A stretch of DNA of 64,000 nt, from positions 248,001 through 312,000 of the forward strand of contig NZ_JTAN02000019.1 in NCBI RefSeq assembly GCF_000949135.2, written 5' to 3'. The position numbers and the translations under genes were made by a program. Shown piece after piece: positions 8,971 to 60,576 of the stretch. Source of the DNA: Burkholderia sp. USMB20 (GTDB lineage: Bacteria; Pseudomonadota; Gammaproteobacteria; Burkholderiales; Burkholderiaceae). The notes under the pieces are model-generated. The model saw only the letters and a program-made list of their open reading frames with translations. It was not told where the DNA came from and made no database searches. Every line of letters begins with the position of its first letter. Position 1 is the stretch's first letter.

Positions 8971-8972
8971 AT

Positions 8973-20789: not shown

Positions 20790-20878
20790 CGAATCGCAGT
20801 GTCGCCTGATACATCGCCGCGGCCGGCATCGCCGGCGCGGCGGGTGTCGTTGTCCGAACCCGAATTTACTCCATCGTC

Positions 20879-36055: not shown

Positions 36056-36097
36056 CGCGCCATGCCGCGCCTGCCGCACGAACCGGGAATTGCCGCC

Positions 36098-45765: not shown

Positions 45766-47090
45766 AACTCTTCGACCCGCACGGATTCGGCAACTCCGCG
45801 GTCTCGTATGCCGGCCTGCTCGAGAAGATCGAGATCCTGCGCTCGATGCTGCGCTGGGCGCCCAAGCTCGAGCGTGTCGACATCGAAAAGCTGCTCAATC
45901 AGGCGAACGTGCTGCGCGACGAAGTCATGCAGATGTCGCGCAAGGAGCGCTTCGTCGAGGCCGCCGTGGCCGCGCCGCAGGCGCCCGACGCAGCCGATTC
46001 GGCCGACGCGCCGGAGGCGCCCGCGCCCGCGGTGCAACGACGGCGGCAGGCGTTGATCGAGCGCAGCTTCATCTTCGAGGGCATTTTCGGCGACAACCCG
46101 AAGCTGCTCGCCGCACTCGAAATCGCCGAGAAGGCCGCGCCGACCGATCTGCCGGTGCTGATCGACGGCGAGAGCGGGACCGGCAAGGAGCTGATGGCGA
46201 AAGTCATCCACGCGAACGGGGCGCGCGCCGACCGGCCCTACATCTCGGTGAACTGCGGCGCGATTCCCGACAACCTGCTCGAATCCGAGCTGTTCGGCCA
46301 CCGGCGCGGCGCGTTCACCGGCGCGTCGAACGATCGCAAGGGCAAGTTCGAGAGCGCGCACACCGGCACGATCTTCCTCGACGAAATCGGCGAATTGCCG
46401 CTGTCGGGCCAGGTCAAGCTGCTGCGCGTGCTGGAATCGCACGAGATCCAGCGGGTCGGCTCGGACGAGCCGATCAGCGTCGACACGCGCATCGTCGCCG
46501 CCACCAACAAGAATCTGCGGCAATTGAGCGAGCAGGGGCTCTTTCGCGAGGACCTGTTCTATCGCCTGAGCGTCATTCATCTGACCTTGCCCGCGCTGCG
46601 CGAGCGTCGCGACGAAATCCCGCTCCTGCTCGCGTACTTCGGCGACGAGGCGGCAGGGGCGCTGAAGCGCAGGCCACTCAAGACGACGCCGAAGCTGCGC
46701 GACTTCCTGCTGACGTACGCGTATCCGGGCAACATCCGCGAACTGCGCAACCTCGTCTACCGTCTGTCGTGCCTCGCCGGCGAGGTCGCGGATATCGAGC
46801 ACCTGCCCGAGGACATCCGGCCGAAAACCGGGGCGGCCGCCGTTCGCGCGACCGATGACGGCACGTCGGGCAGGCCGATGTCGCTCAGCGACGCGAAGCG
46901 TGCGGCAAGCGACGAGGCGGAGCGTGCGTTTCTCGAACGCGGGTTGCAGGAGACCGGCGGCACCGTGGCCGAACTGGCGCGCCGTTGCGAGATGAACCGG
47001 TCGCACCTGCAGATGCTGCTCAAGAAGCACGGCATCCGTTCGAAAGCGTTCCGTCATCAGGACCCCGCGACGCCCGACAAGGACGCGTAG
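45762..47090 (+). CDS. sigma-54 dependent activator without a receiver domain
   Basis: 442 residues from the ATG overlapping the exporter stop. The N-terminal 95 residues are a helical region with an Ala/Pro linker, not a receiver, PAS or GAF domain. The AAA+ domain (about 100-335) has Walker A GESGTGKE, the sigma-54-contacting GAFTGA loop, Walker B IFLDEIGE and the R-finger region. A Fis-type helix-turn-helix ends the protein (about 385-425). It should activate the -24/-12 promoters found before the exporter operon and peptide genes. How it senses a signal is unclear. Confidence 0.93.
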   Translation: MKLFDPHGFGNSAVSYAGLLEKIEILRSMLRWAPKLERVDIEKLLNQANVLRDEVMQMSRKERFVEAAVAAPQAPDAADSADAPEAPAPAVQRRRQALIERSFIFEGIFGDNPKLLAALEIAEKAAPTDLPVLIDGESGTGKELMAKVIHANGARADRPYISVNCGAIPDNLLESELFGHRRGAFTGASNDRKGKFESAHTGTIFLDEIGELPLSGQVKLLRVLESHEIQRVGSDEPISVDTRIVAATNKNLRQLSEQGLFREDLFYRLSVIHLTLPALRERRDEIPLLLAYFGDEAAGALKRRPLKTTPKLRDFLLTYAYPGNIRELRNLVYRLSCLAGEVADIEHLPEDIRPKTGAAAVRATDDGTSGRPMSLSDAKRAASDEAERAFLERGLQETGGTVAELARRCEMNRSHLQMLLKKHGIRSKAFRHQDPATPDKDA

Positions 47091-47105: not shown

Positions 47106-47876
47106 TCAGCGTCGCACGGAAGGATTGGCGAGCGTCCGGTCCGACGCATCGGGATCGGACGCGCGGATCACGACCGCGGTGACGTTGTCCCGGCCGCCCG
47201 CGCGCAACGCGAGGGCGACGAGCTCGTCCGTTGCGCGCGCGCAATCGCCGCAGGCGAGGGCGGCCGAGATGTCGGCTTCGTCGAGCTCGTTGCTCAGGCC
47301 GTCGCTGCACAGCAGAAACATGTCGCCGTCGCATACGTCGATGCGTCGTTCGTCGAGCTGCAGTTGCTCGGCGGCGCCGACCGCGCGCGTGATCACGTGC
47401 TGCGACGGGTGATGGCGCGCCTGCTGTGCGCTCAGGTGGCCCTGCGCCTGCAGTTCCGCGACGTGGCTGTGATCGAGCGTGAGCTGCGTCAGGCGCGCGT
47501 CGCGGTACAGGTAGATCCGGCTGTCGCCGGCCCACAGCCAGCCGCATTGGCGGCCGCTCGCCAGCAGCACCGCCACCGTGCTGCCGATCATGCGCACGCC
47601 GCGCCGGGCGGCCGATTCGCGCAATTGCGCGTTGACGGCATCGAGCGCGGTACGCGCCGCCGCGATGAAGTCCGCCAGCGTGGCCGGGGCGGCCAGCCGA
47701 TCCAGCGCCTGCACGATCATCCGGCTCGCGAGGTCGCCGGCCGAATGTCCGCCCATGCCGTCCGCAACGGCCCACAGGCCACGGTGCGGCAACGCGAGGC
47801 AATCGTCTTCGTTGATCTCGCGAACCCGGCCCACGTCGGTGCGTGACGCCGAAGTCCATTGCAGTTCTGCGCTCAC
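47106..47876 (-). CDS. PP2C-type Ser/Thr phosphatase
   Basis: 256 residues with all Mg/Mn ligands: NEDD, ADGMGGH near residue 40, GDSRIY, SDGLSNE and RDNVTAVV. Close in length and layout to PppA/Stp phosphatases. No membrane segment. It converges with the activator gene (15 bases between stops). It should reverse phosphorylation made by the kinase at 50230-51507, with the FHA protein as reader, a kinase-phosphatase-FHA trio as in type VI secretion control. Confidence 0.92.
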   Translation of the reverse strand: MSAELQWTSASRTDVGRVREINEDDCLALPHRGLWAVADGMGGHSAGDLASRMIVQALDRLAAPATLADFIAAARTALDAVNAQLRESAARRGVRMIGSTVAVLLASGRQCGWLWAGDSRIYLYRDARLTQLTLDHSHVAELQAQGHLSAQQARHHPSQHVITRAVGAAEQLQLDERRIDVCDGDMFLLCSDGLSNELDEADISAALACGDCARATDELVALALRAGGRDNVTAVVIRASDPDASDRTLANPSVRR

Positions 47877-47960
47877 GGCGCGCCATTCCTTTTCGTTCAG
47901 GGCGGGTTCATGCCGATCAGGGCTTGTGAACGCGCGTTGCCGGCCGGCTTGAAACCGGCG

Positions 47961-48245
47961 CTAGACGAGCCGGTTCCTGCCGTCCGCGCCGACCCCGACC
48001 ACGATGTTCGCGCCAGGCGCCGAGTTCGCGACGTCGATGTTCTGGATCTGGTTGAGAACCTGGTTCGCGTAGAACGTGTTGTACGTCTGATAGAGGTTGA
48101 CGACCGGCCCGAACGCAGGCGCCGGCGGCGTGTACGGCTGGATCCAGCCGAATACCCACGGCGCGCCTGCGCCGCGGATGAACGACATCGTCTTGCGGTC
48201 GATGTCGCGCTGCATGTGAAGGTCGGTAATTGCGAGCGTGGTCAT
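47961..48245 (-). CDS. leader peptide precursor with GA cleavage site (peptide D)
   Basis: 94 residues from ATG 48245 (GGAGA upstream). The first 26 residues align without gaps with three other small proteins in this window: Leu4, Ile6, Asp8-Leu9, Arg17, Met20, Ile23, Gly25. Here the second Gly is Ala26. The predicted mature peptide is 68 residues, free of Cys, with a Pro/aromatic start, a Tyr/Asn/Gln-rich middle and a Val/Gly-rich end (NIVVGVGADGRNRLV). A sigma-54 promoter lies 48 bases upstream. Likely substrate of the C39 exporter. Confidence 0.8.
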   Translation of the reverse strand: MTTLAITDLHMQRDIDRKTMSFIRGAGAPWVFGWIQPYTPPAPAFGPVVNLYQTYNTFYANQVLNQIQNIDVANSAPGANIVVGVGADGRNRLV

Positions 48246-48292
48246 GATGCGTCTCCGAATGGGGCTTGCCGACGAACCGGGTACCCGATACG

Positions 48293-48308
48293 TGCAAACC
48301 TCGTGCCA
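48293..48308 (-). promoter_or_regulatory. Sigma-54 promoter of peptide D
   Basis: On the minus strand TGGCACG-AGGT-TTGCA is an exact match to the -24/-12 consensus with ten bases between GG and GC. Expected start near 48282, about 37 bases before the ATG. It is the best sigma-54 promoter in the window. The other bases between 48246 and 48644 show no gene. Confidence 0.85.
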
Positions 48309-48644
48309 TGCGCGACACGACCCGCGTGCGTGGCCCGGGCGCGGGCGTCGATCCGCCCGGGCGCCACGCGCGGCAAGGCAAGGCGCGATCGACACGCGTT
48401 GTTTGCATCCTAGTGCGTCGCGGCCTCGTCCCGCAATGGTTGTACGCGAGCCAACAGTCGGGGCCACGAACGTGGCCGCGAAACCGACACGTGCTCCGGC
48501 ACATGCAGACGGCGGTCGGGCGCGCCAACTGGTGCTGTCTCACCAACAAAATCCCCGGCAAACGGTTGGCCGCGCGGCGACAGCGCAGTGCGCGGTTCGC
48601 CGGGCGCTTCCCGCCAGGCCTTGCACGGCGGGCGCCGCGAAGAG

Positions 48645-48660
48645 TGGCACGCTTGATGCA
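48645..48660 (+). promoter_or_regulatory. Sigma-54 promoter of the LRAT-like gene
   Basis: TGGCACG-CTTG-ATGCA, one mismatch to consensus, GG and GC ten bases apart. It reads rightward, opposite to the peptide D promoter 340 bases away. The start would fall near 48671, about 57 bases before ATG 48728. Confidence 0.75.
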
Positions 48661-48727
48661 GGTTAGTTGGCAACCGGCCGACCCATGAGCAACACGGGCG
48701 GCCGCCAACCTGCAGACGGAGCCCGTC

Positions 48728-49249
48728 ATGGAACGCGACCTTCAACCAGTGAACAGCATTGCGGACGCAAGCGCGCAGGCAGCTTTGCTGTCCGGCGGCG
48801 TCGATGCACTGCCGCTCGGCGCGCACCTGGTTTCCGATCGCGGCGCCTACAGCCATCACGGCATCTACGTCGGCGACGGGCGCGTCGTCCACTACGCGGG
48901 GCTGTGCACGTCGCTGCATCGCGGCCCGATCGAGGAAGTCACGCTCGAACGCTTCGCCGCCGGTCACGCGGTGCGCGTCGTGCCGCATCCGTACGCCGCC
49001 TATGCGGGACGCACCGCGGTGCTGCGCGCGCGTTCGCGTCTGGGCGAAAACCGCTATCGCCTGCTCACGAACAACTGCGAGCACTTCTGCACGTGGTGCG
49101 TGGAAGGGACGGGCCACAGCGAGCAGGTTCGCACCTGCGTCATGCATCCGCGGACGGCCGTCCGGTTCGCGCTGTCCGTCTGCCGCGCGCTGCTCGCGGC
49201 GCGGCGCGCGGGCGGACGAGGTGCCGCGGCCGCCATCGCCGCCGCATGA
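48728..49249 (+). CDS. LRAT/NlpC-P60-superfamily acyltransferase-like protein
   Basis: 173 residues, start after CGGAG. The permuted papain-like fold of lecithin:retinol acyltransferase is shown by YSHHGIYVGDGRVVHY (His44 and His55) and NNCEHFCTWC (catalytic Cys117). The family moves acyl groups or acts as a thiol phospholipase/hydrolase. A helical Ala/Arg-rich tail (about 140-173) may touch membranes. The sigma-54 promoter and position among peptide genes suggest a role in modifying, or giving immunity to, the exported peptides; this is inference. Confidence 0.82.
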   Translation: MERDLQPVNSIADASAQAALLSGGVDALPLGAHLVSDRGAYSHHGIYVGDGRVVHYAGLCTSLHRGPIEEVTLERFAAGHAVRVVPHPYAAYAGRTAVLRARSRLGENRYRLLTNNCEHFCTWCVEGTGHSEQVRTCVMHPRTAVRFALSVCRALLAARRAGGRGAAAAIAAA

Positions 49250-49291
49250 GCGACGTCCCGGCGCGTTCGACATCGTCATCAGGGGGCTCAA

Positions 49292-49534
49292 ATGAACGGA
49301 ACCGAATCCTCGCTGCGCATGCAGGTCGACAAGTGGCTCGCGCCGAGCGCGCGCGTGCCGGCGCGCATCGTGCGCTTCAGCCGCCTGCCGGCGCAACGGC
49401 GGCGCTTCGTCTGCGTCGAGGCCGTGCATCCGGCCGGCACGATCGCGATCTTCTTCTTTCGTCACGACGACGGCTCGTGGTGCGTGTTCCCGCCGGCCGA
49501 TCGGCGGCCCGCGATGATGTCGCAGGCGGCCTGA
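49292..49534 (+). CDS. small hypothetical protein after the LRAT gene
   Basis: 80 residues, start after AGGGGG, 42 bases downstream of the LRAT-like gene and probably co-transcribed. The sequence folds as alternating short strands (RIVRFSRL, RRFVCVEAV, GTIAIFFFRHDDGSWCVFPP). No signal peptide, no leader motif, no family I recognise. Position suggests a helper or immunity partner; unproven. Confidence 0.6.
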   Translation: MNGTESSLRMQVDKWLAPSARVPARIVRFSRLPAQRRRFVCVEAVHPAGTIAIFFFRHDDGSWCVFPPADRRPAMMSQAA

Positions 49535-49563
49535 CCGTGCATGCGCGGCCGGGTGGTGTGCCG

Positions 49564-49782
49564 TCAGCGCAACAGGGTCGGGCGCGCCGGGGACGCCGCC
49601 GTTTCGGCCGCCGGTGCTTGCTTCAACGCAGCCCCGCGGGCGTCGGTGTGCAGATAGGGGAAAGGCTGCGGCGCGAGCATCGTCTGATGCGCACGGACCC
49701 GCGCGCCACCGCTGATGGCGGCCATCGCCTGGCGGTCGAGGTCGACGCTTTCGGGAAGATCGTTGATGACGAGCACGCCCAT
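49564..49782 (-). CDS. leader peptide precursor with GG site (peptide C)
   Basis: 72 residues from ATG 49782 (GGAG upstream). Residues 1-26 keep the shared leader pattern: Leu4, Ile6, Asp8-Leu9, Leu15-Asp16-Arg17, Met20, Ile23 and Gly25-Gly26. The predicted mature part is 46 residues, Cys-free, Ala/Pro-rich, with QTMLAPQPFPYLHTD near its start. It converges with the 49292-49534 gene. Unlike the other peptides I find no good sigma-54 match upstream. Confidence 0.72.
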   Translation of the reverse strand: MGVLVINDLPESVDLDRQAMAAISGGARVRAHQTMLAPQPFPYLHTDARGAALKQAPAAETAASPARPTLLR

Positions 49783-50229
49783 GGTTGACTCCGCGAAATC
49801 GGATGGAAGAGGGGCAGCCATGCAGCATCGTGCGATGTGCCGACGTACCGGGAATCTGTCCAGTATAGGTTCGCCGCACGACCGCGCGCGCTGGAAAATC
49901 GACCGGGCAGCGCGGGTGCGCATGGACGGCGAAAACCTGAAGCCGGTTCGCGATCGATCGACGTGAATTCTAGTTCCGGCACCGATTGCACAGGGCGTGA
50001 CCGCAGACTAGTATGATTTGTTAGACGTCCTGTCAGAAGGCCTGCGGCCGGTGCGGCGCGCAGCCGGATTCGTCTGATGATGACGTGGCAGCGTGCGCAG
50101 CTTCGATGGTGTCCGGTGCATCACCGGCATGTCGCGCTGCACGGGTACGTCATCGACGGTCCTTGCCCTGGCGGCGCCGCGGGACGCCGAAGCGGGTCGG
50201 CAAGCTGAAGCTGAGTAGACGGCATACGA
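49783..50229. other. Divergent region between peptide C and the kinase gene
   Basis: About 450 bases. The part at 49980-50035 is A/T-richer and contains tagtatgatttgttagac, a possible sigma-70 promoter for the kinase. A weak TGGC-N8-TTCC element precedes peptide C. No gene is supported here. Confidence 0.4.
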
Positions 50230-51507
50230 ATGATGAGCTTTGCGCAGCTGATTCAGACATTCCAGAGCGGGACGCTGTCGCAGGAAGCGTTCTTCTCGGA
50301 GATCGACCGTGTGCTGGCGACCGATCAGGTCGATTGCGCGCGGTTGCGCGAAGTGCTCGACCAGACGCAAACCACGCAGCCGTTGTCGGACGATATCTAT
50401 GCGGAAGTGCTGAAACGCCTCGAGCGGTGTCGCGACAGAACGGCATCCGCGGGCGACGCGACCCGGATCCAGGAGAGCCCGCTTCGGCCGGACGCGCGTC
50501 CGGGCATCGCGCCCGGGCCGTCGGGCGACGCACTGTCCATTGACGGCGAGCGCGTGAAAGGCATCGGCGATACGCTGAACGGGCGCTTCGTGCTGGAGGA
50601 GTGCCTGGGCGTCGGCGGCATGGGTACCGTGTACAAGGCGCTCGACCTGCGCAAGCTGGAGGCGTCGGATCGCAAGCCGCACATCGCGATCAAGGTGCTC
50701 AATGTGCAGTTTCGCGGCCAGCCGACGTCGCTGATCGCGCTTCAGCGTGAGGCCCGCAAGGCGCAGACGCTCGCCCATCGCAACATCGTCACCGTCTACG
50801 ACTTCGATCGGGACGGTCCGCTCGTCTACCTCACGATGGAGTATCTGTCGGGCCGGCCGCTCAGCAAGGTGCTGCGCGCGCCGGACTTCAAGGGCATGCC
50901 GCTCGATGCCGCGTTGCCGATCATCGCCGGCATGGGCCAGGCGCTCGCCTACGCGCACGAGCGCGGCTTCGTTCACTGCGATTTCAAGCCCGCCAACGTG
51001 TTCCTGACCGACCGCGGTGAGGTGAAGGTGATCGACTTCGGGATTGCGCGCGCATTCCAGCGCCGCGACGAGGATCCCGACGTGACCGTGTTCGACCCGG
51101 CGAGCCTCGGCGGCATCACGCCGGCCTATGCGAGCCCGGAGATGTTCGAGCATCTCGAGCCGGATCCGCGTGACGACGTCTACGCGCTCGCCTGCGTCAC
51201 CTACGAATTGCTGACCGGGCACCATCCGTTCAATCGGCTGTCGGCCACCCAGGCGCGTCACGACCACTTGCGGCCCGAGCGTCATCCCGGTCTCGATCGC
51301 ACGCAATGGCGAACCTTGAGCGCCGCGTTGTCGTTCGACCGCGCGGCGCGCACGCCCAGCGTCAACCAGTTCCTGGAAGGCATGGGCGTGCTCAAGCCAC
51401 CCGCCCGGGCATCGGGCGTACGCGTGGGGGTGGCCGTGGGCGCTTGCACGGCGGCGGCGATCGCCGTGCTCTGGTACGGCTACCAGGCGCTTTCGCGCAG
51501 CAGGTGA
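50230..51507 (+). CDS. Ser/Thr protein kinase with C-terminal membrane anchor
   Basis: 425 residues. After a helical N-terminal part (about 1-110) comes a Hanks-type kinase domain (about 118-385). It has the glycine loop LGVGGMGTVYKA, Lys155 in IAIKVL, the catalytic loop HCDFKPAN (His249-Cys250-Asp251, an HCD in place of HRD), DFG at 269-271 and PAYASPE. One membrane helix near 402-419 would hold it in the inner membrane, with a short end. With PP2C (47106) and the FHA protein (38371) it makes a phospho-signalling set around the exporter. The stop may be premature; see the next gene. Confidence 0.88.
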   Translation: MMSFAQLIQTFQSGTLSQEAFFSEIDRVLATDQVDCARLREVLDQTQTTQPLSDDIYAEVLKRLERCRDRTASAGDATRIQESPLRPDARPGIAPGPSGDALSIDGERVKGIGDTLNGRFVLEECLGVGGMGTVYKALDLRKLEASDRKPHIAIKVLNVQFRGQPTSLIALQREARKAQTLAHRNIVTVYDFDRDGPLVYLTMEYLSGRPLSKVLRAPDFKGMPLDAALPIIAGMGQALAYAHERGFVHCDFKPANVFLTDRGEVKVIDFGIARAFQRRDEDPDVTVFDPASLGGITPAYASPEMFEHLEPDPRDDVYALACVTYELLTGHHPFNRLSATQARHDHLRPERHPGLDRTQWRTLSAALSFDRAARTPSVNQFLEGMGVLKPPARASGVRVGVAVGACTAAAIAVLWYGYQALSRSR

Positions 51508-51690
51508 CGGGCGCCCTGGCAACGGATACGTCGCGCACGCGACCGCCGGCGGCGGGAATGGCCGGACGGCGAGCGCCGGTGCCGGCAGCGCCCCGCGGCC
51601 GCCGCGAACGCGCGCCCGCTGCTGGCCAGGCGCGCCGCCGGGCGCACCGGCACCGGCACGACACCCGCACCCGGCGATCTCGCTGCGGCC

Positions 51691-52350
51691 GTGACGGCTG
51701 CGCTGGCGCGCGTACCGTGTTCGGCGCTGGTTGCATCGGTGCAGGATCGCGTGCTGCAGGTGCGCGGTTATACGGAAGCCGGTGTCGGCATCGGCCGCGT
51801 GCGCAGCTCACTCGGCGGCCTGGCGGGCGGCCAGGCGGCGAGGCTCGACGTGCGTCCCGTCGACGCCCGCGATTGCGAGGTCGTGAGCGCGCTGGCGCCG
51901 TACTGGCGGTCGAATCAGGCATCGTCACACGCCGCGTCGCTCCGCACGCGAGCGCCGGACGCGCATCTCGCGGAAGGCAGCCCGCTCGTCATCGACATCA
52001 CGACACCCGGTTACGAGTCGTATGTGAACGTCGATTACTACGTGCTGAACGGCAGCGTCGTGCATCTCGTGCCGAGCAGCCGCGAACGCGACAACCAGGC
52101 GCCGCCGAATTACGCCGCGACGATCGGCAGCATGGGCGAGTGGGTGATCGGGCCGCCGTTCGGCACCGAGATGATCGTGCTCCTCGTCACGCCCGCGCCG
52201 CTGTTCGACGGGTTACGGCCTTCATCCGAGCCGCGCGCCGCCTATCTCGCGGCAATCGGGCGGCAATTGAAGCTGTTCGAGGCCAAATACGGCGAGGGGC
52301 GCATTGCCGCCGATTTCATCCAGATCACGACGCATGCCAACGGCCGCTGA
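51691..52350 (+). CDS. DUF4384-type domain protein, possibly the detached end of the kinase
   Basis: 219 residues if GTG 51691 is the start, but no ribosome site precedes it. It lies in the same phase as the kinase, 183 bases past its TGA. The domain (about 90-200) has DITTPGYESYVNVDYYVLNGSVVHLVPSS and EWVIGPPFGTEMIVLLV, as in DUF4384 domains found after Ser/Thr kinases or caspases. The gap is a Pro/Ala/Arg-rich stretch with coding-like codon use in shifting frames. One kinase-DUF4384 protein broken by indels is likely, though two real proteins are possible. Confidence 0.6.
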   Translation: MTAALARVPCSALVASVQDRVLQVRGYTEAGVGIGRVRSSLGGLAGGQAARLDVRPVDARDCEVVSALAPYWRSNQASSHAASLRTRAPDAHLAEGSPLVIDITTPGYESYVNVDYYVLNGSVVHLVPSSRERDNQAPPNYAATIGSMGEWVIGPPFGTEMIVLLVTPAPLFDGLRPSSEPRAAYLAAIGRQLKLFEAKYGEGRIAADFIQITTHANGR

Positions 52351-52367
52351 GCGGGCCGATGCGCCGG

Positions 52368-52826
52368 TCAGCGGCCCAGCGCTTGCGCCGCCTGGTGAAT
52401 GGCGCGGCGGATGCGGGGAAACGTGCCGCACCGGCATGCGATGTTCTTCATGGCTTCGTCGATCTGGTGGTCGTCGGGGCGAGGGCAGCGCATCAGCAGC
52501 GCGGTGGCGGCAATCAGCTGGGCGCTCTGGCAATAGCCGCATTGCACGACGTCGACGGCAATCCACGCGTTCTTCAGCGCCCGCGCTTCGACGCCGTCCA
52601 GCCCTTCGATGGTGGTGATGCGCGCGCCGTTCAGCGTACCGACCGGCAGCTGGCACGCGGGCACGGCCTGATCGTTCAGGAGCACCGTGCACGCACCGCA
52701 GACGCCGACACCGCAGCCGAACTTCGTGCCGGTCAGCTTCCGTTCGCACCGAATCACCCAGAGCAGCGGCGTGTCGGGCTCGGTATCGAGGTCAGCGGTT
52801 TCCCCGTTGATACGGACTGACACCAT
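52368..52826 (-). CDS. (2Fe-2S) small subunit of a molybdenum oxidoreductase
   Basis: 152 residues from ATG 52826. The N-terminal plant-type cluster is CGVGVCGACTVL plus a later Cys; the C-terminal helical cluster is CGYCQSAQ...CRCGTFPRI. This is the IorA/CoxS type. It follows the large subunit, overlapping its end by 73 bases in another frame, and feeds electrons from the Mo site to an unknown acceptor. No cytochrome c gene is next to it. Confidence 0.92.
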   Translation of the reverse strand: MVSVRINGETADLDTEPDTPLLWVIRCERKLTGTKFGCGVGVCGACTVLLNDQAVPACQLPVGTLNGARITTIEGLDGVEARALKNAWIAVDVVQCGYCQSAQLIAATALLMRCPRPDDHQIDEAMKNIACRCGTFPRIRRAIHQAAQALGR

Positions 52827-55138
52827 CGGTCGTCTCCTTGCCCGGGCGGGCTCGGCTTGATGAGCGGCAGGGTGCGATGACGCACGCCCGTGAGCGCATA
52901 CAGCGCATTCGCCACGGCCGCCGCGATCGGCGGCGTGCCCGCTTCGCCGACGCCGTGCGGCTCGGTCCCGCCGGCCAGGACTTGCGTGACGATCTCGGGG
53001 CAAGTCTCCATGTTGACCAGCGGATAGCTGTCGAAATACTGCTGCGCGACTTGCCCGTTCTCGATCGTGATCGCCTGCTCCAGCGCGGCCGACAATCCGA
53101 AGATGATCCCGCTCTCCATCTGCTGCTCGACCAGGTTCGGATTCACGGCCAGCCCGCAGTCGATCACGCAGAACACGCGCGTCACGCGAAAGCCGTCACC
53201 GTCCTGCCGGAGTTCGGCGACTTGCGCGACCACGCTGCCGAACGATTCGTGCATCGCCACGCCGCGTGCGCGCCGCGCGCCGGTCTCGTCACGCCACGCG
53301 AGCGGCGAACGCCAGCCGGATAGCGCGACGAGCGCCCGCAACACGGCCACGTGGCGCTGGTGCGCCGGCTGCTTCAGCATGTCGAGCCGAAACTGGATCG
53401 GGTCCTTGCGAGCCAGCGCCGCCATCTCGTCGATGAAGCTCTCGACGAAGAATGCCTGATGCGAGTGTCCGACGGAGCGCCAGTAGCCAACGGGGACCGG
53501 GAGCGTCACCGTATTGTGCTGGACGAGAATGTTCGCGCATTCATAGGGCAGGTCGAATGCGCCTTCCGCCGTGGTGGCGTCGGGCAGCCATTTCGCGGCG
53601 AGGCCCGGCATGCCGAAGGTGCGCGGCATCGCCTGCGCGCTGATCGACTGGCTCGCCGACACCCCTTTCCAGGCAACCAGCCTGCCGCTCGCATCGACGG
53701 CGCCGCTGTATCTCGCCACGCAGGCCGGGCGGTAGAAGTCGTGCGTCATGTCCTGCGGGCGCGACCAGATCGTCTGGACGGGCCGCCCCTTCGCATGAAG
53801 CGCGATGGCGGCCGCCTGCGTGATGAAGTCGACCTCGAGCCGCCTGCCGAAGGCCCCGCCGATCAATTGCTGGTTCACGACCACCTTGTCTTCGTCCAGG
53901 CCCAGCAGCGCCGCGACTGCCCGGCGTGCCACCATCGGAACCTGCGTGCCGCACCAGATCGTTGCCGCGTCGTCGTCGACCCGCACCGTGCAATTCATCG
54001 GTTCCAGCGGCCCGTGAGCCAGGTACGGCACTTCGTACTGCGCGACGAACGGCTTCGCGTGGCCCAGCGCCGCATCGGCATCGCCGGCGGCGTAGAACAC
54101 GTGGCGCCCGTCATCGCCGTCGAGGGCGCGCGTCAACGCCGCGCGGACGTCCGCGGTATTCACGCCCGCAGCCGGCCCGTGATCCCATGTGACCGGCAAC
54201 CCGCACAACGTCCGCATGGCGATGAAGGGATTGTCGGCAATGACGGCAACGCCTCCCGTTCCGCCGTGGTATGGCGCGATCGTGAAGACACCGGTCACGC
54301 CCTTCAGGCCGCCGACCCTGGACCGGTCGACCGCCAGCGCCGTTCCGCCGAGTGTCGGGCACATCGCGACGCTCGCATACAGGAGCTTGTCCGGAAGCAC
54401 GTCGATGCCATAGCGCGCGCTGCCGTCGAGCTTCGCGTGCGCCTCGATGCGGCCCAGCCGTTTCCCGACCAGCATGAAAGTCTTCGGGTCCTTCAGAGCG
54501 ACATGTGCCGGGCGCGGCACGTCCCGCGCGCGCTCGACCAGTTCGCCGTACGTCGCCGAGCGCCCCGACCGATGCAGCACCACGCCGGCTTTCGTCTCGC
54601 ATTCGGCGACGGGCACCTGCCAAAGCTGCGCCGCGGCGCTGCGCAACATGATGCGGGCCGTGGCGCCCGCTTCGCGCATGGGCCCCCACAGATCGATCAT
54701 GCTCGTCGATCCGCCCGTTACCATCGAACCCAGATAGCGTGCGCCGTGGCGCACCAGGGCCGCCGCGCCGCGCGCGAGCAGGCTGTCGTCATCGGGACGA
54801 AACGGCAGGCCGTCGGCCAGTGATTCGCGGTCCTTGTAGATCGTGTCGAGCGGGGACATGACGATGCGCGCGCGCGACCAGTCCGCATCCAGCTCTTCGG
54901 CCAGCAACATGGCCGCGCCGGTATGTATCCCCTGGCCCATTTCGGATTTGCTCATGACGATCGTCACGTCGTTAGCGGAACTGATCATCACCCAGCCGTT
55001 CAGCGGCACATCGACGCGCGACATCGCCAGCTGCGCGGGTATGGCCAGCCGGTCGTCGCGGCGCCACCACGCCCAGCCGATCACCAGCGTGCCCGCCACG
55101 CCCGCACTGCCCAGCACGAAGGTTCTGCGCGTCAACAT
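52754..55138 (-). CDS. molybdopterin-binding large subunit, isoquinoline 1-oxidoreductase/aldehyde dehydrogenase type
   Basis: 794 residues from ATG 55138; a GTG at 55171 is an alternative. A Tat signal (TRRTFVLGSAG, then a hydrophobic stretch) sends the folded enzyme to the periplasm. Mo-cofactor motifs: SEMGQGIHTG, GGAFGRRLEVDF, and the catalytic Glu in GVGEAGTPP near residue 755. The order of subunits (large then small) and absence of a FAD subunit match IorAB-like enzymes. The last 30 residues (after LPLIKPSPP) go beyond the usual end and overlap the small-subunit gene. Confidence 0.9.
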   Translation of the reverse strand: MLTRRTFVLGSAGVAGTLVIGWAWWRRDDRLAIPAQLAMSRVDVPLNGWVMISSANDVTIVMSKSEMGQGIHTGAAMLLAEELDADWSRARIVMSPLDTIYKDRESLADGLPFRPDDDSLLARGAAALVRHGARYLGSMVTGGSTSMIDLWGPMREAGATARIMLRSAAAQLWQVPVAECETKAGVVLHRSGRSATYGELVERARDVPRPAHVALKDPKTFMLVGKRLGRIEAHAKLDGSARYGIDVLPDKLLYASVAMCPTLGGTALAVDRSRVGGLKGVTGVFTIAPYHGGTGGVAVIADNPFIAMRTLCGLPVTWDHGPAAGVNTADVRAALTRALDGDDGRHVFYAAGDADAALGHAKPFVAQYEVPYLAHGPLEPMNCTVRVDDDAATIWCGTQVPMVARRAVAALLGLDEDKVVVNQQLIGGAFGRRLEVDFITQAAAIALHAKGRPVQTIWSRPQDMTHDFYRPACVARYSGAVDASGRLVAWKGVSASQSISAQAMPRTFGMPGLAAKWLPDATTAEGAFDLPYECANILVQHNTVTLPVPVGYWRSVGHSHQAFFVESFIDEMAALARKDPIQFRLDMLKQPAHQRHVAVLRALVALSGWRSPLAWRDETGARRARGVAMHESFGSVVAQVAELRQDGDGFRVTRVFCVIDCGLAVNPNLVEQQMESGIIFGLSAALEQAITIENGQVAQQYFDSYPLVNMETCPEIVTQVLAGGTEPHGVGEAGTPPIAAAVANALYALTGVRHRTLPLIKPSPPGQGDDRWCQSVSTGKPLTSIPSPTRRCSG

Positions 55139-55419
55139 GAGGTGGCCGCCGACATGTGTTGATCGAGTCACGGCGCCGCCGGCGAATCACGCCACGCGCC
55201 TCCGGCATTCAATGTTTCGAACACAATCCGACATTTCATTGCAGCTGCAATCACCTATATTAGTCACTGATCTCGGCAACCGAGAACCTGAATGTGAGGT
55301 TCGTTTGAAACAAGCGCTGAAGAGGCGGCCTGCAGCGACCGGATCGACATGCGTGGGGTTCCGGGACGCGAAGCGCATCGAGCCGGCCGCTTCGAACGCA
55401 CCACCGCCGGAGGCCGTCG
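55139..55419. other. Divergent promoter region
   Basis: 281 bases between the leftward Mo-enzyme genes and the rightward 55420 gene. An A/T-rich island at 55205-55310 (cacctatattagtcactgat) should hold sigma-70 promoters. No sigma-54 site is seen. Confidence 0.4.
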
Positions 55420-57765
55420 ATGCTCGTCGATGAGGTTCACGCGTTGCTGCTCGGATTGCCGGCGCCGTGGCGAGCAGCGTTCGAACGTCACGGTCTCGAC
55501 CTGTCCGATTCGGGCACGCCCGAGGAGACGGCGAAGCGACTGAGCCGGCCGCTGCCGATCGACTGGGACGATCCGCGCATTCACGATCTCTGCCCGGACA
55601 CCACGCGGGCGATCGAGCCCGGCGACCCGGCACGCAGTCTCGTCTATCACCTGCTCGCACTGTCCACGTGCCCGGCGCCGGATGCCGGCGTGCGCCTCGA
55701 GGCAATCGACTTGCTGGAGAACTACATCGATTCGCTGGCGCCGTTGCCGCCCGACTGGCAGACGCTGGACATCGCGGTGCTGGCTTATCAGTACCGGCCC
55801 GCGCGCCGTACCGGACATCAGCAGCATGCGGACCTCGTGTTCTCGCGACTCGGCATTGCCCGCAACGGCGACGTCGACGCAAGCTACGACGAGCAGACCC
55901 GCAGCTTCGTGCCGCACGTGCCGGACGGGATCGAGCATGTCCGCGCGATGCCGGCGCGCTATGGCGCGTTTCTCGTGCGCCGGGTCACCGGCCCCGGCAC
56001 GCTCGCGCTGATCGAGGGCAGGCAAGCGGGCGACGATCGGCGCACCTTCATCGAACCGGTGCGCAAGCTGTTTCCCGATGAATGCCTGCCCGGACGCCGG
56101 TTGACGTTGCAATATGGCCACTGCCATCGCGGCGAGAAGCTGAAGCGGGCCGTCGAGGCGCGCTGGGGCGTGCGGCCGTCGCCGTCGGGCGATCTGGGCG
56201 GCGCACCGTATGCGATCTGCTCCGAGGACGCCGGCACGGCACCGCCTGCCGGCGCGAGCACCCCGGCAGTCGCACTGAAGCGTTCGGGCGCGGCCGTGCT
56301 CCTGATCCCGGCCGCGCGGCCGCTGATCGAGCCGGTGAACGCCGCCAACTTCGGCGTGCACGGCTTCGGCGTGCCGGCTCGATGGCGGCTGGCCCCGCTC
56401 GCCAACCGGCGCTTCACGACGATGAGAATCATCACGAATCTGTGGAAGCTGGTGCTGGCCGCCGTCGACGACGTGCGGCAGCACTATTTTCCGCATTTCG
56501 CGCCCGCCTGGCTTCGATTTCCCGAACCGCGCAATGCACCGGAGTTCATCAACATCCGGCACAAGGCGCATGAGGACGGCTCCTGCACGGATATGCGCGC
56601 GCATCCCGTCGACCGACAGGCATTCCTCGGGGAAGTCGGCAAAGGCGGCTATCGCGCGCAGCTGTTTCTGGATCACTGCAGCGAAGGCGTCGTGACGATC
56701 CGTATCGCCGAGCTGGCGGGACACGCGGTACACCCGGCCTATTCGGTCGTTGCCGCGCCGGATTTCTACCCGTACGCCGACCAGGCGGAATTGCAGCGCT
56801 GGTTCAAGGACCGGCGGATCGATCCGAAGTCGCAGTTCAGGAGCGGCTCGCCGATATCGCTCAGCGCCGAGCGCCTGCCGGCCAATCCCCATCACGTCGA
56901 TCCGTTCAGCCATACGCAGGCGTTTTCGCCGCGTGACGAGACGGTCGCCGTCGCGTTCAGCCGGGCGGCACGCTCGGCGCGGCGGCGGGACCGGGACGTG
57001 CAGATGCCGCGCATGACCTCGTTCCTGTCGGACGCGTCTTCGGGCGTGTTTGCGCCCGGCTGGGACGTCACCTATGCGGGCAACCGGCGCGGCATCTTCC
57101 TCGCCACCTTCGGGCTCGGCAGCCCGTTCGCCGAAGATATCAAGCTGTGCGCGGCCTCCAACAGCTTCTGGCCCGCCGTGAGCCCCGATGCGTCCAGAAC
57201 CTTCAACCGGAGCGACGCGCCGACCGCGATCCCGATGCTCGACCATGAACTCGGCCTGCATCCGTGTCATCCGCTGGTCACGCGCGGCGACGAGTCGAAC
57301 ACGCGGCGCGGATGGGACGGCGAATACGGCCCGTACCTGACGCCCGACGGCAGCGTGGATTACGCGGACATCGAACGCTCGGACTACGTCGCCAACGCGC
57401 TGCACGGCGAGATGCTGTACGGCGCGTTCGAGCATGTCGATTCGGCCGAGCTGATCCGGCGCATCGGTGCATTGCGCCATGCCGTCGCCGCATGCGACCA
57501 CGGACAAACGCCGTCGCATACGAAGCTGTGGCTGGTATCCGCGCGGGCACTTCGCGAAGCCGACGCTGCGGACGCGTCGGGCGTTGCCGCGCGCTATCGC
57601 TTTCTTTTCGTTCTGCCTGCTGCCGATGCGACGCCGGCGCAGCACATGCCGGGACGGCTGCGCGTGCGCTACGGTGAGGCGATCCGTTGCGATGCGACCG
57701 AGGCCCGGGTGATCGGCCCCGTGCTGCGCAGCGCACCGGGGCCGGACGCGCTCGGGCTTTACTGA
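55420..57765 (+). CDS. large protein of unrecognised family, partner of a flavoprotein
   Basis: 781 residues, start ATG 55420 after GGAGG. No signal peptide or membrane segment. Sequence blocks include DPARSLVYHLLALSTCP (about 68-84), LENYIDSLAPLP, FINIRHKAHEDGSCTDMRAH, GVFAPGWDVTYAGNRRGIF and IKLCAASNSFWPAVSPDASRTF (about 585-606). The last two recall LodA/GoxA-type Cys-Trp-quinone oxidases, and the next gene is a LodB-like flavoprotein. However, the LodA N-terminal HPAIGIARVGNS-type opening is absent. I therefore leave the function open. Conserved Cys/Trp in the WPA region should be examined. Confidence 0.6.
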   Translation: MLVDEVHALLLGLPAPWRAAFERHGLDLSDSGTPEETAKRLSRPLPIDWDDPRIHDLCPDTTRAIEPGDPARSLVYHLLALSTCPAPDAGVRLEAIDLLENYIDSLAPLPPDWQTLDIAVLAYQYRPARRTGHQQHADLVFSRLGIARNGDVDASYDEQTRSFVPHVPDGIEHVRAMPARYGAFLVRRVTGPGTLALIEGRQAGDDRRTFIEPVRKLFPDECLPGRRLTLQYGHCHRGEKLKRAVEARWGVRPSPSGDLGGAPYAICSEDAGTAPPAGASTPAVALKRSGAAVLLIPAARPLIEPVNAANFGVHGFGVPARWRLAPLANRRFTTMRIITNLWKLVLAAVDDVRQHYFPHFAPAWLRFPEPRNAPEFINIRHKAHEDGSCTDMRAHPVDRQAFLGEVGKGGYRAQLFLDHCSEGVVTIRIAELAGHAVHPAYSVVAAPDFYPYADQAELQRWFKDRRIDPKSQFRSGSPISLSAERLPANPHHVDPFSHTQAFSPRDETVAVAFSRAARSARRRDRDVQMPRMTSFLSDASSGVFAPGWDVTYAGNRRGIFLATFGLGSPFAEDIKLCAASNSFWPAVSPDASRTFNRSDAPTAIPMLDHELGLHPCHPLVTRGDESNTRRGWDGEYGPYLTPDGSVDYADIERSDYVANALHGEMLYGAFEHVDSAELIRRIGALRHAVAACDHGQTPSHTKLWLVSARALREADAADASGVAARYRFLFVLPAADATPAQHMPGRLRVRYGEAIRCDATEARVIGPVLRSAPGPDALGLY

Positions 57766-57776
57766 AGGGAACCGCG

Positions 57777-58748
57777 ATGAATGCGATCGACGTGCTCGTG
57801 GTCGGCGACGGGCCTGCCGGATGCGCTGCCGCGATCGCGGCAGCAAGAGTGGGCGGCAACGTGTGGATGCTGGGCCACGGGCGTTCGCGGGCGGCGCCGG
57901 AATGCGTGTCCGGCGCCGCGCTCGCGCTGCTCGATCGACTGGCGCCGAGCCTCGCGCGGCAACCGCATACATGGCTCGATGATGTGGCCGATGCGCAGCG
58001 GGGACGTGCGGTCATCCGCAGCCGGCTCGACGACGGCCTGCGTGCCGAAGCGCTGGCTGCCGGCGTTCGCTATGCGCGTGCGCCCGCCGGCGGGTTTCTC
58101 GCGCGTGTCGAACACGGCGCGGTCATGGGCATCACGCACGGCGACGGCGATGTCGGCGCAAGCACCGTGATCGATGCAACCGGCGTCAACGGGTGGCTGC
58201 GTCGCGCGATGCGGCTCGAGGTGGCGACCGACTCTTCGCTGTTCTGGCTTCGCCGCGGCTACGCGCGCGGGCCAGGCACGCACCCCGGCACATATTGGAA
58301 CATCGCGCGCGGCGGCTGGCTGTGGATGAGGGCGACGTCCACGTTCCGGATCTGGACGTCGCTATCGACGCTGCGCGATGGCGAGATCGCGTGGCCGGCG
58401 GACACGACACCCGTCGGACCGATGTGGCGCGAGGGCAGACGCTGGCAGTGCGTGCGCCGGACCGCGGGCCCGGGCTATATCGTGTGCGGCGATGCGGCGG
58501 GTTATCTCGACCCCGCGACAGGAGACGGTTTGCGTTTCGCCATCGCTTCCGGCCTGCGCGCGGGCGCAATGGCCGTCGACGTTTCGCGTCATCCCGGTCG
58601 GGCAAGCGTGCTGGCCGCGCTGTACTGCGACTGGGTGACAGACAGCTACGAGCGCAGCAGAGCCGTGTTGGCACGGAGTTACGCGCGTGCGGGGCTCGAT
58701 CTCGGATGGCGCGACGCAGTCCGCTGCGCGGCAGTGGATGCGGCATGA
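57777..58748 (+). CDS. FAD-dependent oxidoreductase, LodB/tryptophan-halogenase-like
   Basis: 323 residues from ATG 57777 with AAGGGA upstream, 11 bases after the previous stop, so surely co-transcribed. The dinucleotide fold VVGDGPAGCAAAIAAA is at residues 7-22 and the second FAD motif GDAAGYLDPATGDGLRFAI near 240-258. It lacks the long C-terminal part of true halogenases. LodB-like flavoproteins form the quinone cofactor in LodA-like partners; a matching role on the 55420 protein is possible. A bidirectional hairpin terminator follows. Confidence 0.78.
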   Translation: MNAIDVLVVGDGPAGCAAAIAAARVGGNVWMLGHGRSRAAPECVSGAALALLDRLAPSLARQPHTWLDDVADAQRGRAVIRSRLDDGLRAEALAAGVRYARAPAGGFLARVEHGAVMGITHGDGDVGASTVIDATGVNGWLRRAMRLEVATDSSLFWLRRGYARGPGTHPGTYWNIARGGWLWMRATSTFRIWTSLSTLRDGEIAWPADTTPVGPMWREGRRWQCVRRTAGPGYIVCGDAAGYLDPATGDGLRFAIASGLRAGAMAVDVSRHPGRASVLAALYCDWVTDSYERSRAVLARSYARAGLDLGWRDAVRCAAVDAA

Positions 58749-58776
58749 AGGCCGGTTGCGCTTTCACCATGCAAAG

Positions 58777-58804
58777 AAGCCCGCCAGCGGGAGCTGGCGG
58801 GCTT
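58777..58804. terminator. Bidirectional hairpin terminator
   Basis: Perfect 12-base stem AAGCCCGCCAGC / GCTGGCGGGCTT with a four-base loop. On the minus strand it is followed by CTTTGC and terminates peptide A; on the plus strand it follows the flavoprotein gene by 28 bases. A sequence copy sits at 59823-59854. Confidence 0.75.
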
Positions 58805-58896
58805 GAAACGCCGCAGGACGAACCCGCGGCGGGCTGAGGAACTTCGGTACGACTCGATCGAAACACTGCTGCGACTGCAAGCAAGCATCGCGAAAC

Positions 58897-59157
58897 TTAC
58901 AGGCCCAGCTTCGCGATGACCTGGCCGCCGAGGTTGTTGATCGAGTTGGTCACGCTGGTGAGATCCTGGTGGGTCGATGCATCGACCTGCGTCACCGGCG
59001 CCGTGATGGTATTGGCGCTGGCGAACGAGAATCCGCCGCCGGTCACGATGTTGTTGATACCTGCGTTCTGGAACACGCTACCCCCGCTGACGGAAGCCAT
59101 TTCCTTGCGGCTGAGTTCGTGGGCGTGGGACAGATCGTTGATCATCAGTGCGGACAT
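58897..59157 (-). CDS. leader peptide precursor with GG site (peptide A)
   Basis: 86 residues from ATG 59157, with AAGGAG nine bases upstream. Leader residues 1-26 (Leu4, Ile6, Asp8-Leu9, Leu15, Arg17, Met20, Val23, Gly25-Gly26) fit C39 processing. The predicted 60-residue mature peptide (SVFQNAGINNIVTGGGFSF onward) has no Cys, Trp, Tyr or Pro-rich part. It is rich in Asn, Thr, Ser, Val and Gly, and closes with NSINNLGG and KLGL. It is 86-residue collinear with peptide B, differing at only a few sites. A sigma-54 promoter precedes it and a hairpin follows it. Confidence 0.82.
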   Translation of the reverse strand: MSALMINDLSHAHELSRKEMASVSGGSVFQNAGINNIVTGGGFSFASANTITAPVTQVDASTHQDLTSVTNSINNLGGQVIAKLGL

Positions 59158-59222
59158 GGTCAATCTCCTTGAGTGTGCTGCGGTTTGGAAAGAGCACGTT
59201 TCGTTGCGCTCGCAGCTATCAA

Positions 59223-59238
59223 TGCACGGCGCGTGCCA
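59223..59238 (-). promoter_or_regulatory. Sigma-54 promoter of peptide A
   Basis: Minus strand TGGCACG-CGCC-GTGCA: one mismatch to the -24/-12 consensus, GG-N10-GC spacing kept. Start expected near 59212, about 55 bases before the ATG. The leader below it (GCTGCGAGCGCAACGAAA) is shared with peptide B. Confidence 0.75.
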
Positions 59239-59822
59239 GGCTCTGCTCATGCGCGCGGGAAACACATCCAACCTCATGAAAACAAACGAAATTCAATCCG
59301 CTCGACGCCATTTCACCGGGTTCGCCGGGCAAGATCGGAGCACGGCGGTGTCGGGTTCTTCCAGACGGTTTCCGCGTCTGCTGTTCTATCCCGGCCAACA
59401 GGAACGGGACGTGACGCTGGCGATTCGCGTCGAAGGCATCGACGGGCAGCCGCAGCGTGTGAGCGCCTGCGCAGGAAAGCCCTCGACGCGATGCTGCGCC
59501 GACGGTCGGCGGCAACCGGCATTGGCGCAACGATCGTCACGAGGTACTTCGGATCACTGAATTTATCGCGTACCATCCGGAATGGCACAACGCATCGGGA
59601 CTGCCGCGCCGACGGCCAACGGGGCATCGATGCGACCACGCGGCACCATGACTGGCGCCGCGGCGCCATCCGCCTCGACGAGGCGAAGCGGATCCGCGTG
59701 CAGGGAAGGGAGGTCGAAGGCGCGGCGGGATCAGCCCGGCCGCTGATGGGCGCGGGCGGTGCTGTTGACGGGGCGTCGGCCCGTCTGCCCGTTCATGCCG
59801 GCTTCGTTTTTATCATGCAGGG

Positions 59823-59854
59823 AAGCCCGCCAGGGAACACGGCCTGGCGGGCTT
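59823..59854. terminator. Hairpin terminator after peptide B
   Basis: AAGCCCGCCAGG / CCTGGCGGGCTT, 12-base stem and eight-base loop. The same stem core as at 58777-58804, with a compensatory change of the last base pair, so the pairing is under selection. Confidence 0.65.
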
Positions 59855-59945
59855 TGAACGCCGCGAGGACAACCCCGCGGCGGGCTGGAGCGTTTCGGTC
59901 GACGCTGTCGGACACGGTTGCCGCTGAGCGGACATCCGGCGCAGC

Positions 59946-60206
59946 TTAGAGGCCCAGCTTGCCGACGACCAGGCCGCCGAGGTTGTTGATCGAATTGGTC
60001 ACGCTGGTGAGATCCAGGTGGGTCGATGCATCGACCTGGGTGACCGGGGCCGTGATGGTATTGGGGCTCGCGAACGAGAAGCCGCCGCCGGTTGCGATGT
60101 TGTTGATTCCGTAGTTCTGGAACACGCTACCACCGCGGACGGAAGCCATTTCCTTGCGGCTGAGTTCGTGGGCGCGGGACAGGTCGCTGATCATCAGTGC
60201 GGACAT
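59946..60206 (-). CDS. leader peptide precursor with GG site (peptide B)
   Basis: 86 residues from ATG 60206 (TAGGAGA upstream). A tandem paralogue of peptide A, identical apart from about ten residues (for example ISDLSRAHE for INDLSHAHE in the leader, NYGINNIATGGG for NAGINNIVTGGG and LVVGKLGL for QVIAKLGL). The GG at 25-26 is kept. The two may act together as a two-peptide bacteriocin, or differ in target. Own sigma-54 promoter and own terminator, so expression is separate. Confidence 0.82.
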   Translation of the reverse strand: MSALMISDLSRAHELSRKEMASVRGGSVFQNYGINNIATGGGFSFASPNTITAPVTQVDASTHLDLTSVTNSINNLGGLVVGKLGL

Positions 60207-60273
60207 GATAAATCTCCTAAGTTTGCTGCGGTTTTGGAAGAGAGCACGTTTTCGTTGCGCTCGCAGCTACAAA

Positions 60274-60289
60274 TGCATGGGGCGTGCCA
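60274..60289 (-). promoter_or_regulatory. Sigma-54 promoter of peptide B
   Basis: Minus strand TGGCACG-CCCC-ATGCA: one mismatch to consensus, GG-N10-GC spacing. It is the same over 15 bases as the exporter-operon promoter at 36793. The rest of 60207-60576 shows no gene; it also carries the rightward start region of the GMC gene. Confidence 0.78.
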
Positions 60290-60576
60290 GCCCGCGTCAC
60301 GCCTGCGCGATGGGCGCTTAACCCGATGAAAACAAAGGACATTTCATCCAGATCCCGATAATTCGCCGCGTGCGCCGGGCAAGCTCGCGGAAAGACGATG
60401 TCGGGTGTTGCCAAACAATTTGCCGGGCAACTGTTTCGCGTCATCCAACACGAAGGCGGCCTGGCTGCCCGCATTGGCTTCGCTCGGTCCGGCCTCGCGA
60501 TGCCGCCGGAAATCCGCGGATGCTTCGGGTCGTGCGTATCGGAACCGTGGCGCACCTGCGTCAGGAGATCGTCGTC

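Follow-up and report, generated by a model that had tools for sequence, protein, structure and literature searches.

In class II microcin export (MccV, CvaAB-TolC), a double-glycine leader is cut by a C39 ABC exporter that works with HlyD and TolC partners, and in the Fap functional amyloid system of Pseudomonas the amyloid substrate is paired with a C39-type peptidase. HetC of Nostoc PCC 7120, a cNMP-C39-ABC exporter, binds ppGpp in vitro and has been proposed to export a signalling peptide; in the available part of the report describing it, the substrate is not identified and no leader-peptide gene is reported near hetC (PMC10986499). Here we describe a 64,000-nucleotide stretch of the genome of Burkholderia sp. 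USMB20 (contig NZ_JTAN02000019.1, positions 248,001 to 312,000 of the forward strand; hereafter the window), which encodes a cNMP-C39-ABC exporter and, nearby, four short peptides with a common leader. We consider the locus to be best explained, with a probability of roughly 0.5, as a type I export system that is under regulation and serves small peptides of matrix or amyloid type, not bacteriocins. The sequence data support a C39/type I exporter dedicated to a set of conserved substrates, and the four peptides are very probably among these.

Leader peptides and the C39 exporter

The four peptides, termed A, B, C1 and C2 (Table 1), all translate at the coordinates given and, as the initial annotation held, share an ungapped 26-residue leader ending in GG or GA. 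Leu4, Ile6, Asp8-Leu9, Leu/Ile15, Arg17, Met20, Val/Ile23, Gly25 and Gly/Ala26 are kept in 4/4 without gaps. Leader identity is 9-13 of 26 residues per pair, with the exception of C1 and C2 (23/26). The cargo lengths reported earlier for C1, C2, B and A (60, 60, 46 and 68 residues) proved correct, as did the lack of Cys in all four. The accompanying statement that the mature parts differ almost completely has to be revised, because the cargos of C1 and C2 are identical at 53/60 positions, so that there are three types of cargo in the window. Within the plasmid collection, only a replicon of Burkholderia stagnalis matched this region closely (coverage 96% of 16.5 kb, at 88.6%). In the annotation of one relative, the leader peptides are labelled as hypothetical proteins.

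To collect related loci, the cNMP-C39 region was scanned against genome contigs, which gave 276 relatives, and the best 80 loci were retained (L006-L085). A hidden Markov model (HMM) of the leader was then run on 78,144 start-codon candidates from 86 sequences, namely the window, the 80 scan loci and five plasmid regions. The loci were picked by their exporter and are related by common ancestry, so the locus counts given here do not represent independent events. The HMM gave 234 matches above 14 bits, 231 of them at 24 bits or more, with only five matches from 10 to below 20 bits. Leader peptides were found in 80/86 sequences and in 74/80 scan loci picked by the exporter alone. The six scan loci with none in the stretch were L009, L010, L013 and L058, which are short stretches, and L035 and L043; the L035 genome has leader peptides 2-6 kb past the locus stretch on the same contig, and the L043 genome has them on another contig. 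The exporter of the window is intact, as first described (domains in Table 1), and the C39 catalytic motif Q-C-H-D is intact in 83/84 exporter sequences.

The co-occurrence of leader and exporter was also assessed genome by genome, using a profile whose underlying alignment had one row a residue short. Among 65 Burkholderia genomes, leader and exporter were both present in the same 12. Among 117 genomes of Paraburkholderia (the genus of LB400), the leader was found in 90 and the exporter in 89, these being the same 89 plus one further genome with the leader (G218); the exporter match in G166 was partial. In the order sample, both were present in the centre genome and neither in the other 149 genomes. 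The leader was present in 26/195 genomes of the family of G007, and in 3/398 genomes of a phylum sample that includes the centre genome, two of the three having already been matched in other samples. With an E limit of 0.01, a related 3.17-Mb B. stagnalis replicon gave four leader matches, none weaker than E 2.9e-12 and all in equivalent places. In P. xenovorans LB400 (G001), an environmental laboratory strain, seven of the eight leader matches lie at 2,846,972-2,879,368, with the exporter at 2,851,134 on the same contig, and the eighth is weak (E 0.0013). Chance coincidence of the leaders is ruled out by the HMM score gap and the genome-wide co-occurrence with the exporter. The initial annotation had proposed enrichment of the leader near C39 exporters as a check; this was run and enrichment was found, so the claim that the leader family belongs with the exporter stands. 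The peptides also have what is expected of substrates of a peptidase-containing ABC transporter, namely an N-terminal leader ending in GG, GA or GS and a genetically linked cognate exporter with an intact C39 peptidase. The C39 domain would cut each precursor after the GG or GA of the leader, and the cargo would leave the cell through the HlyD adaptor and the TolC-like channel of the same operon.

In Caballeronia plasmids, class C peptides (classes are defined below) form tandem arrays (L001 at 8954-9803 and 19998-21864, L002 at 19998-22600), with 8 and 4 peptides found in the respective stretches and no close exporter relative in the 40-kb stretch. The first gene of each run has a sigma-54 site and the later copies are mostly without one. 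The genome-wide leader profile gave no matches to the L001 plasmid peptides, whose leader variant is shorter.

Sigma-54 promoter-like sites and upstream palindromes

Promoter-like sites for sigma-54, which had escaped the initial annotation together with the LRAT-type enzyme and its 80-amino acid (80-aa) neighbour discussed below, were searched with a minimum score of 13.5 of 15 against the -24/-12 consensus. Such sites lie 50-109 bp before the start in 163/234 peptide genes, the background being 1.66% in random 250-bp windows and 2.6% in reverse complements. A stricter motif was present in 105/231 distinct upstream regions and in 56/10,000 random windows. By class, sites precede 69/73 A, 84/96 N, 10/19 C, 0/27 B and 0/19 D genes, so that sites above background are found for A, N, part of C and, as read directly, the window exporter operon. 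The window contains four copies of the strict form TGGCAY-N6-TGCW, three of them ahead of peptides A, C1 and C2 and one ahead of the LRAT gene. Over all loci, 172 sites score 14 or more, and 134 of these stand before a gene for a peptide or for LRAT. Classes B and D may share the promoter of class N, since in loci with the full set (e.g., L014-L024) they follow N on the same strand. For peptide B of the window, no sigma-54 site was found upstream, and no N or D gene stands before it.

Upstream of the sigma-54 sites, a palindrome TGTYGG-N7-CCRACA scores at least 10 of 12 in 160/162 cases (random 5.7%) and at least 11 of 12 in 123 of 162 (random 2.65%), counts that are partly circular because the palindrome was derived from the same peptide promoters. 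Its distances cluster near 115, 128 and 160 bp. The window exporter promoter lies outside the set used for the derivation, although it is probably a relative of the peptide promoters, since an N peptide stands before tolC in relatives. Upstream of this promoter is the only perfect palindrome match in the window, with a second copy 33 bp further on and a spacing that fits the peptide promoters; the palindromes of C1 and C2 fit the clustered spacing as well. In the whole window, 20 palindromes with up to two mismatches were found against 9.2 expected by chance; copies with two mismatches, such as those of C1, can therefore also arise by chance. A genome search for tandem palindromes matched 6/10 genomes and left 4/10 without a match, with none in the controls; judged by position, four of the matched genomes have the palindromes close to a peptide gene or the exporter operon and two have them elsewhere.

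These observations suggest that the peptide genes and the exporter operon quite probably form a sigma-54 regulon. The conserved activator encoded directly behind the exporter is the obvious candidate for the regulator, and would most likely co-activate the exporter operon and the peptide genes by binding the palindromic upstream site and acting on the -24/-12 promoters. The kinase, the phosphatase, the FHA protein and the cNMP domains would probably gate export.

Cargo classes and candidate roles

By pattern, the cargos fall into about five classes that recur across genera, the labels being hand-made patterns that were altered between analyses: A (PWV.GW...VVNLY...NQ..NQ.Q), B (Arg-rich, often ending TLLR), C (FQN.GIN...APVTQVDAS), D (Q.Q.V.V.ALNN.G.IGAGF) and N (Q.IGQ.QN..NN.GNN.AF). 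Class A relatives adjoin exporters in several genera, Cys is present in 37/143 class N cargos, and mean cargo lengths per class are 44-68 aa. The ratio of nonsynonymous to synonymous differences in the mature part (pN/pS, as uncorrected proportions from 4 to 8 sequences per set) is 0.24 and 0.13 for class A in two genera and 0.22 for class C, and these two classes are under purifying selection; B (0.49) and N (0.46) are less constrained. The view that variable cargo is a hallmark of this family is therefore not upheld, and hypervariable cargo is ruled out by the conservation of classes across genera together with the low pN/pS of A and C. In an Oxalobacteraceae metagenome bin (L034, 14571-14693, minus strand), a class A gene is apparently shortened to 40 aa.

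The same conservation bears on the proposal that the locus is a multi-peptide class II microcin or bacteriocin system whose exported cargos kill relatives. The double-glycine leader, the C39 exporter, the HlyD and TolC-type channel, the small cargos and the presence of several peptides per locus would all fit this proposal. Peptide C1 gave weak NCBIfam bacteriocin-family matches (E 0.002-0.08, all below cut-off) and a bacteriocin signal domain near the cut-off (14.9 vs. 15.7 bits), whereas no curated bacteriocin family was matched over cut-off by the window peptides. Against it stand the pN/pS of classes A and C and the presence of the leader in as many as 90 of the 117 sampled Paraburkholderia. 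None of 24 intergenic open reading frames (ORFs) at 47877-60579 resembles a conserved membrane immunity protein, a comparison that covered up to seven relatives on the A/B side and L003 only on the C1/C2 side. The best-conserved unassigned ORF beside A and B, that of the 80-aa protein, has no clear membrane segment, and a 50-aa frame antisense to it is intact in 6/7 loci; near C1 and C2, the ORF at 60344-60451 has an intact match (52%) in L003, the one comparable relative, and no membrane segment. Because the cargos are conserved and no conserved ORF resembling a membrane protein lies beside A and B, the evidence argues against bacteriocins, and we regard this proposal as unlikely.

The composition of the cargos points in another direction. 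Mature Asn plus Gln content is 21.3% in class A, 17.0% in C, 22.4% in D and 19.6% in N, compared with 5.6% in 17 other window proteins, and cargos of these four classes have few charges and are nearly uncharged. Such an Asn/Gln-rich, low-charge composition is that of curli-type subunits, and class B does not share it; none of the leader peptides scanned reached the Pfam cut-off for curlin repeats. In profile comparisons, A, N and D matched one another better than 150/150 column shuffles. Leader peptides received no significant Pfam or NCBIfam peptide-family assignment, the best matches being to curlin (E 0.003) and to TIGR04149 (E 0.0004; matched by 14/39 class N members, judged by E-value), and no significant assignment among solved structures. 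Three short leader peptides of Noviherbaspirillum massiliense (L091) have Curlin_rpt as their top Pfam match (E 0.0029, 0.0046 and 0.0082), and the 4.2-Mb genome holds just one further curlin match with E up to 1. Class C aligns with these peptides around VTQVD. A relaxed curlin-like motif is found in 11/19 class C cargos vs. 1.4 in shuffles, and in 48/143 class N cargos vs. 7.8. Among the open-licence papers listed as matches, none describes the leader-peptide family by title and start of abstract.

We favour a structural role of amyloid-like kind for classes A, C, D and N, in view of their composition, the conservation of Asn/Gln positions, the occurrence of tandem copies and the relative that resembles curlin. 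This assignment is tentative, its likelihood falling somewhat short of even, although judged by sequence the peptides of these soil Burkholderia relatives resemble components of an outer coat more than antibiotics. Outside the cell, the Asn/Gln-rich uncharged cargos would most likely assemble into curlin- or amyloid-like surface or matrix material, and the small basic B peptide would have a separate role. We regard as doubtful the fuller proposal of a new surface-matrix route, in which small curlin-like subunits with their own double-glycine leaders would pass through a C39 ABC exporter that is gated by signals and controlled by a sigma-54 switch of its own, with an LRAT-type enzyme that may modify them.

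Several observations weigh against a regulated export system for matrix- or amyloid-like peptides. The curlin matches of the L091 peptides are below the Pfam cut-off (20.7 bits) and come from one species only. The four window peptides gave no curlin match at E 0.1, nor was any found in the G001, G005 and G006 genomes; above-cut-off matches in G004 fall in an unrelated 404-aa frame and not in leader peptides. The relaxed motif shows no excess over shuffles in A or D, class B has only 4.8% Asn plus Gln and is Arg-rich, and class C cargo matched neither A nor N by profile comparison. The likeness of A and D is partly compositional (reversed control 21.9 vs. 29.5), and class D alone has a clear hydrophobic periodicity of beta type, with the alpha-type signal raised as well. 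As to regulation, B and D genes have no sigma-54 site of their own, and the remaining 38/172 sites scoring at least 14 do not precede a peptide or LRAT gene, six of them being just before tolC. A looser score adds three window sites at 12949, 19901 and 38382, and the palindrome of peptide A reaches only 10 of 12 and is off the usual distance. As to linkage, G218 has a leader match and no exporter match, some leader peptides of G004 are far from the exporter, and tblastn found no HlyD, FHA or TolC gene beside the exporter in L035, L043, L068 and L081.

The cargos could instead be exported cell-to-cell or developmental signals, in line with the role proposed for Nostoc HetC, a ppGpp-binding exporter (in vitro) that shares the cNMP-C39-ABC layout and for which export of a signalling peptide has been proposed (PMC10986499). 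The regulators encoded at the present locus would suit a tightly timed signal. No receptor gene was recognised among the conserved neighbours scanned, and cargos averaging 44-68 aa, in several classes and in tandem copies, are unusual for signals. We consider this role improbable.

A modifying enzyme is possible because a gene for an LRAT-type thiol enzyme and that of its 80-aa neighbour adjoin the peptide genes. On this basis, the peptides might constitute a new family of ribosomally synthesized and post-translationally modified peptides, in which the LRAT-type enzyme and the 80-aa protein would acylate or otherwise modify the cargos before export. Both genes are frequent among the loci (Table 1), and the 66 LRAT sequences compared all retain the HH, HY and NCEHF motifs, although parts of two motifs had served to select them. 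In loci whose coordinates were compared (e.g., L007, L017 and L066), the match to the 80-aa protein follows that to LRAT at a distance of a few hundred bases, and the 80-aa protein, which has no Pfam match, is a possible partner of the enzyme. The LRAT gene of the window is preceded by a sigma-54 site, as are 23/62 LRAT genes examined (3% of random 400-bp windows), whereas 39/62 have no detected site. Some peptide-bearing loci, such as L034, L068, L076 and L081, have no LRAT gene that could be found. No LanM, YcaO or radical-SAM gene was present among the scanned conserved neighbours, the scan having covered part of the ORFs, and we know of no modification chemistry for an LRAT-type enzyme in such a setting. 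A family of modified peptides has a low probability in our judgement, and export of largely structural cargos remains the reading that we prefer.

Neighbouring genes and comparison with known systems

Table 1. Features of the window. Locus counts are by tblastn in 83 loci chosen for the exporter (L003-L085) unless stated otherwise; the locus stretches end before some of the last neighbour genes.
Feature	Position	Strand	Loci	Details
Peptide A, 94 aa	47961-48245	-		Leader 1-26 ending GA; cargo 27-94 with conserved PWV.GW ... VVNLY ... NQ..NQ.Q; class A
Peptide B, 72 aa	49564-49782	-		Leader ending GG; Arg-rich cargo ending PTLLR
Peptide C1, 86 aa	58897-59157	-		Leader ending GG; cargo with SVFQN.GINN ... 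APVTQVDAS
Peptide C2, 86 aa	59946-60206	-		Near-copy of C1
Exporter, 1023 aa	42694-45765	+	83/83 (by choice)	Two cNMP_binding, Peptidase_C39, ABC membrane and ABC ATPase domains
Outer-membrane factor (TolC-like)	36824-38374	+	78/83	Two OEP stretches
FHA-domain protein	38371-40425	+	78/83	
HlyD-type periplasmic adaptor	40427-41821	+	78/83	
PpiC-type peptidyl-prolyl isomerase	41923-42675	+	83/83	
Sigma-54 activator	45786-47090	+	80/83	AAA+ domain 100-266, weak Fis-type helix-turn-helix 377-409
PP2C-type phosphatase	47106-47876	-	71/83	
LRAT-type papain-like thiol enzyme	48728-49249	+	66/83	HH, HY and NCEHF motifs
Conserved 80-aa protein	49292-49534	+	67/85 matched	Directly downstream of LRAT gene; intact in 7/7 Burkholderia loci
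Ser/Thr protein kinase	50230-51507	+	25/83 within flank taken	Also in stretches L087, L091 and L092
DUF4384-like protein	51691-52350	+	24/83	Just under Pfam cut-off
Two adjacent DUF4399 proteins	35438-36055, 36062-36523	+	74/83 each	Upstream of exporter operon
Caspase-domain and FGE-sulfatase-domain fusion protein	33340-35481	-	73/83	Adjoins exporter operon
Sigma-54 promoter-like site of peptide A	48293-48308	-		TGGCACGAGGTTTGCA
Sigma-54 promoter-like site of peptide C1	59223-59238	-		
Sigma-54 promoter-like site of peptide C2	60274-60289	-		
Sigma-54 promoter-like site upstream of LRAT gene	48645-48660	+		
Sigma-54 promoter-like site of exporter operon	36793-36808	+		TGGCACGCCCCATGCG; read directly
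Two palindromes of exporter operon	36631-36649, 36664-36682	+		Perfect and two mismatches; 162 and 129 bp before -24 element
Two palindromes of peptide C1	59349-59400			Two mismatches each
Two palindromes of peptide C2	60399-60450			One and two mismatches

The listed GTG start of the outer-membrane factor lies only about 15 bp after the -12 element, and its true start is therefore probably downstream. The PpiC-type protein has a weak match, below cut-off, to the peptide-maturation family TIGR04500, and the first ~99 residues of the sigma-54 activator have no Pfam match. Further along the window, a 781-aa protein (55420-57765, plus strand) has no match in Pfam (E 0.1) or NCBIfam (E 0.01), and the gene directly after it (57768-58748, plus strand) encodes a flavoprotein that resembles the QhpG and LodB maturases below cut-off. 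We presume that this pair resembles a LodA/LodB-type quinone enzyme. Among the 83 loci it was matched only in B. stagnalis L003, most stretches ending earlier.

The locus resembles class II microcin systems in its double-glycine leader, C39 ABC exporter and HlyD and TolC-type partners, and differs from them in its conserved cargo classes, sigma-54 sites and cNMP domains; no immunity candidate was found among the 24 ORFs, which near C1 and C2 were compared with one relative. With curli (CsgA/CsgB, Curlin_rpt PF07012) it shares an Asn/Gln/Gly-rich low-charge cargo, with a single repeat-like unit in the L091 peptides. Unlike in curli, the predicted secretion route is another one, matches are below the Pfam cut-off and absent from the window peptides, and no scanned neighbour matches a curli family. 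As to Fap, the FapA chaperone family is weakly matched by peptide C1 (E 0.076); no Fap family was found among the scanned neighbours, and the peptidase is here fused to an ABC exporter. If the surface-matrix route holds, it would be a path for secreting amyloid-like subunits unlike that of curli or Fap. Assembly of the cargos would amount to a new way of building extracellular matrix, and if they do not assemble, they would still represent an unnamed family of secreted peptides.

A cyanobacterial module on the Picosynechococcus plasmid pAQ7 likewise has a PpiC gene directly before an exporter with peptidase and ABC domains and an HlyD gene behind it, but its exporter is ~30% identical and a large extracellular nuclease is encoded nearby. 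By layout, HetC is the closest characterised exporter that we found. The two have in common the domain order, with the cNMP domain placed before C39 and ABC in the window exporter as well, a Gram-negative host and possibly nucleotide-gated export. They differ in that, here, leader peptides adjoin the exporter, and FHA, PP2C, kinase and sigma-54 genes accompany it. Because an exporter of HetC layout comes with multi-copy candidate substrates and a probable regulon of its own in 89/117 sampled Paraburkholderia, its export, gating and regulation are directly testable.

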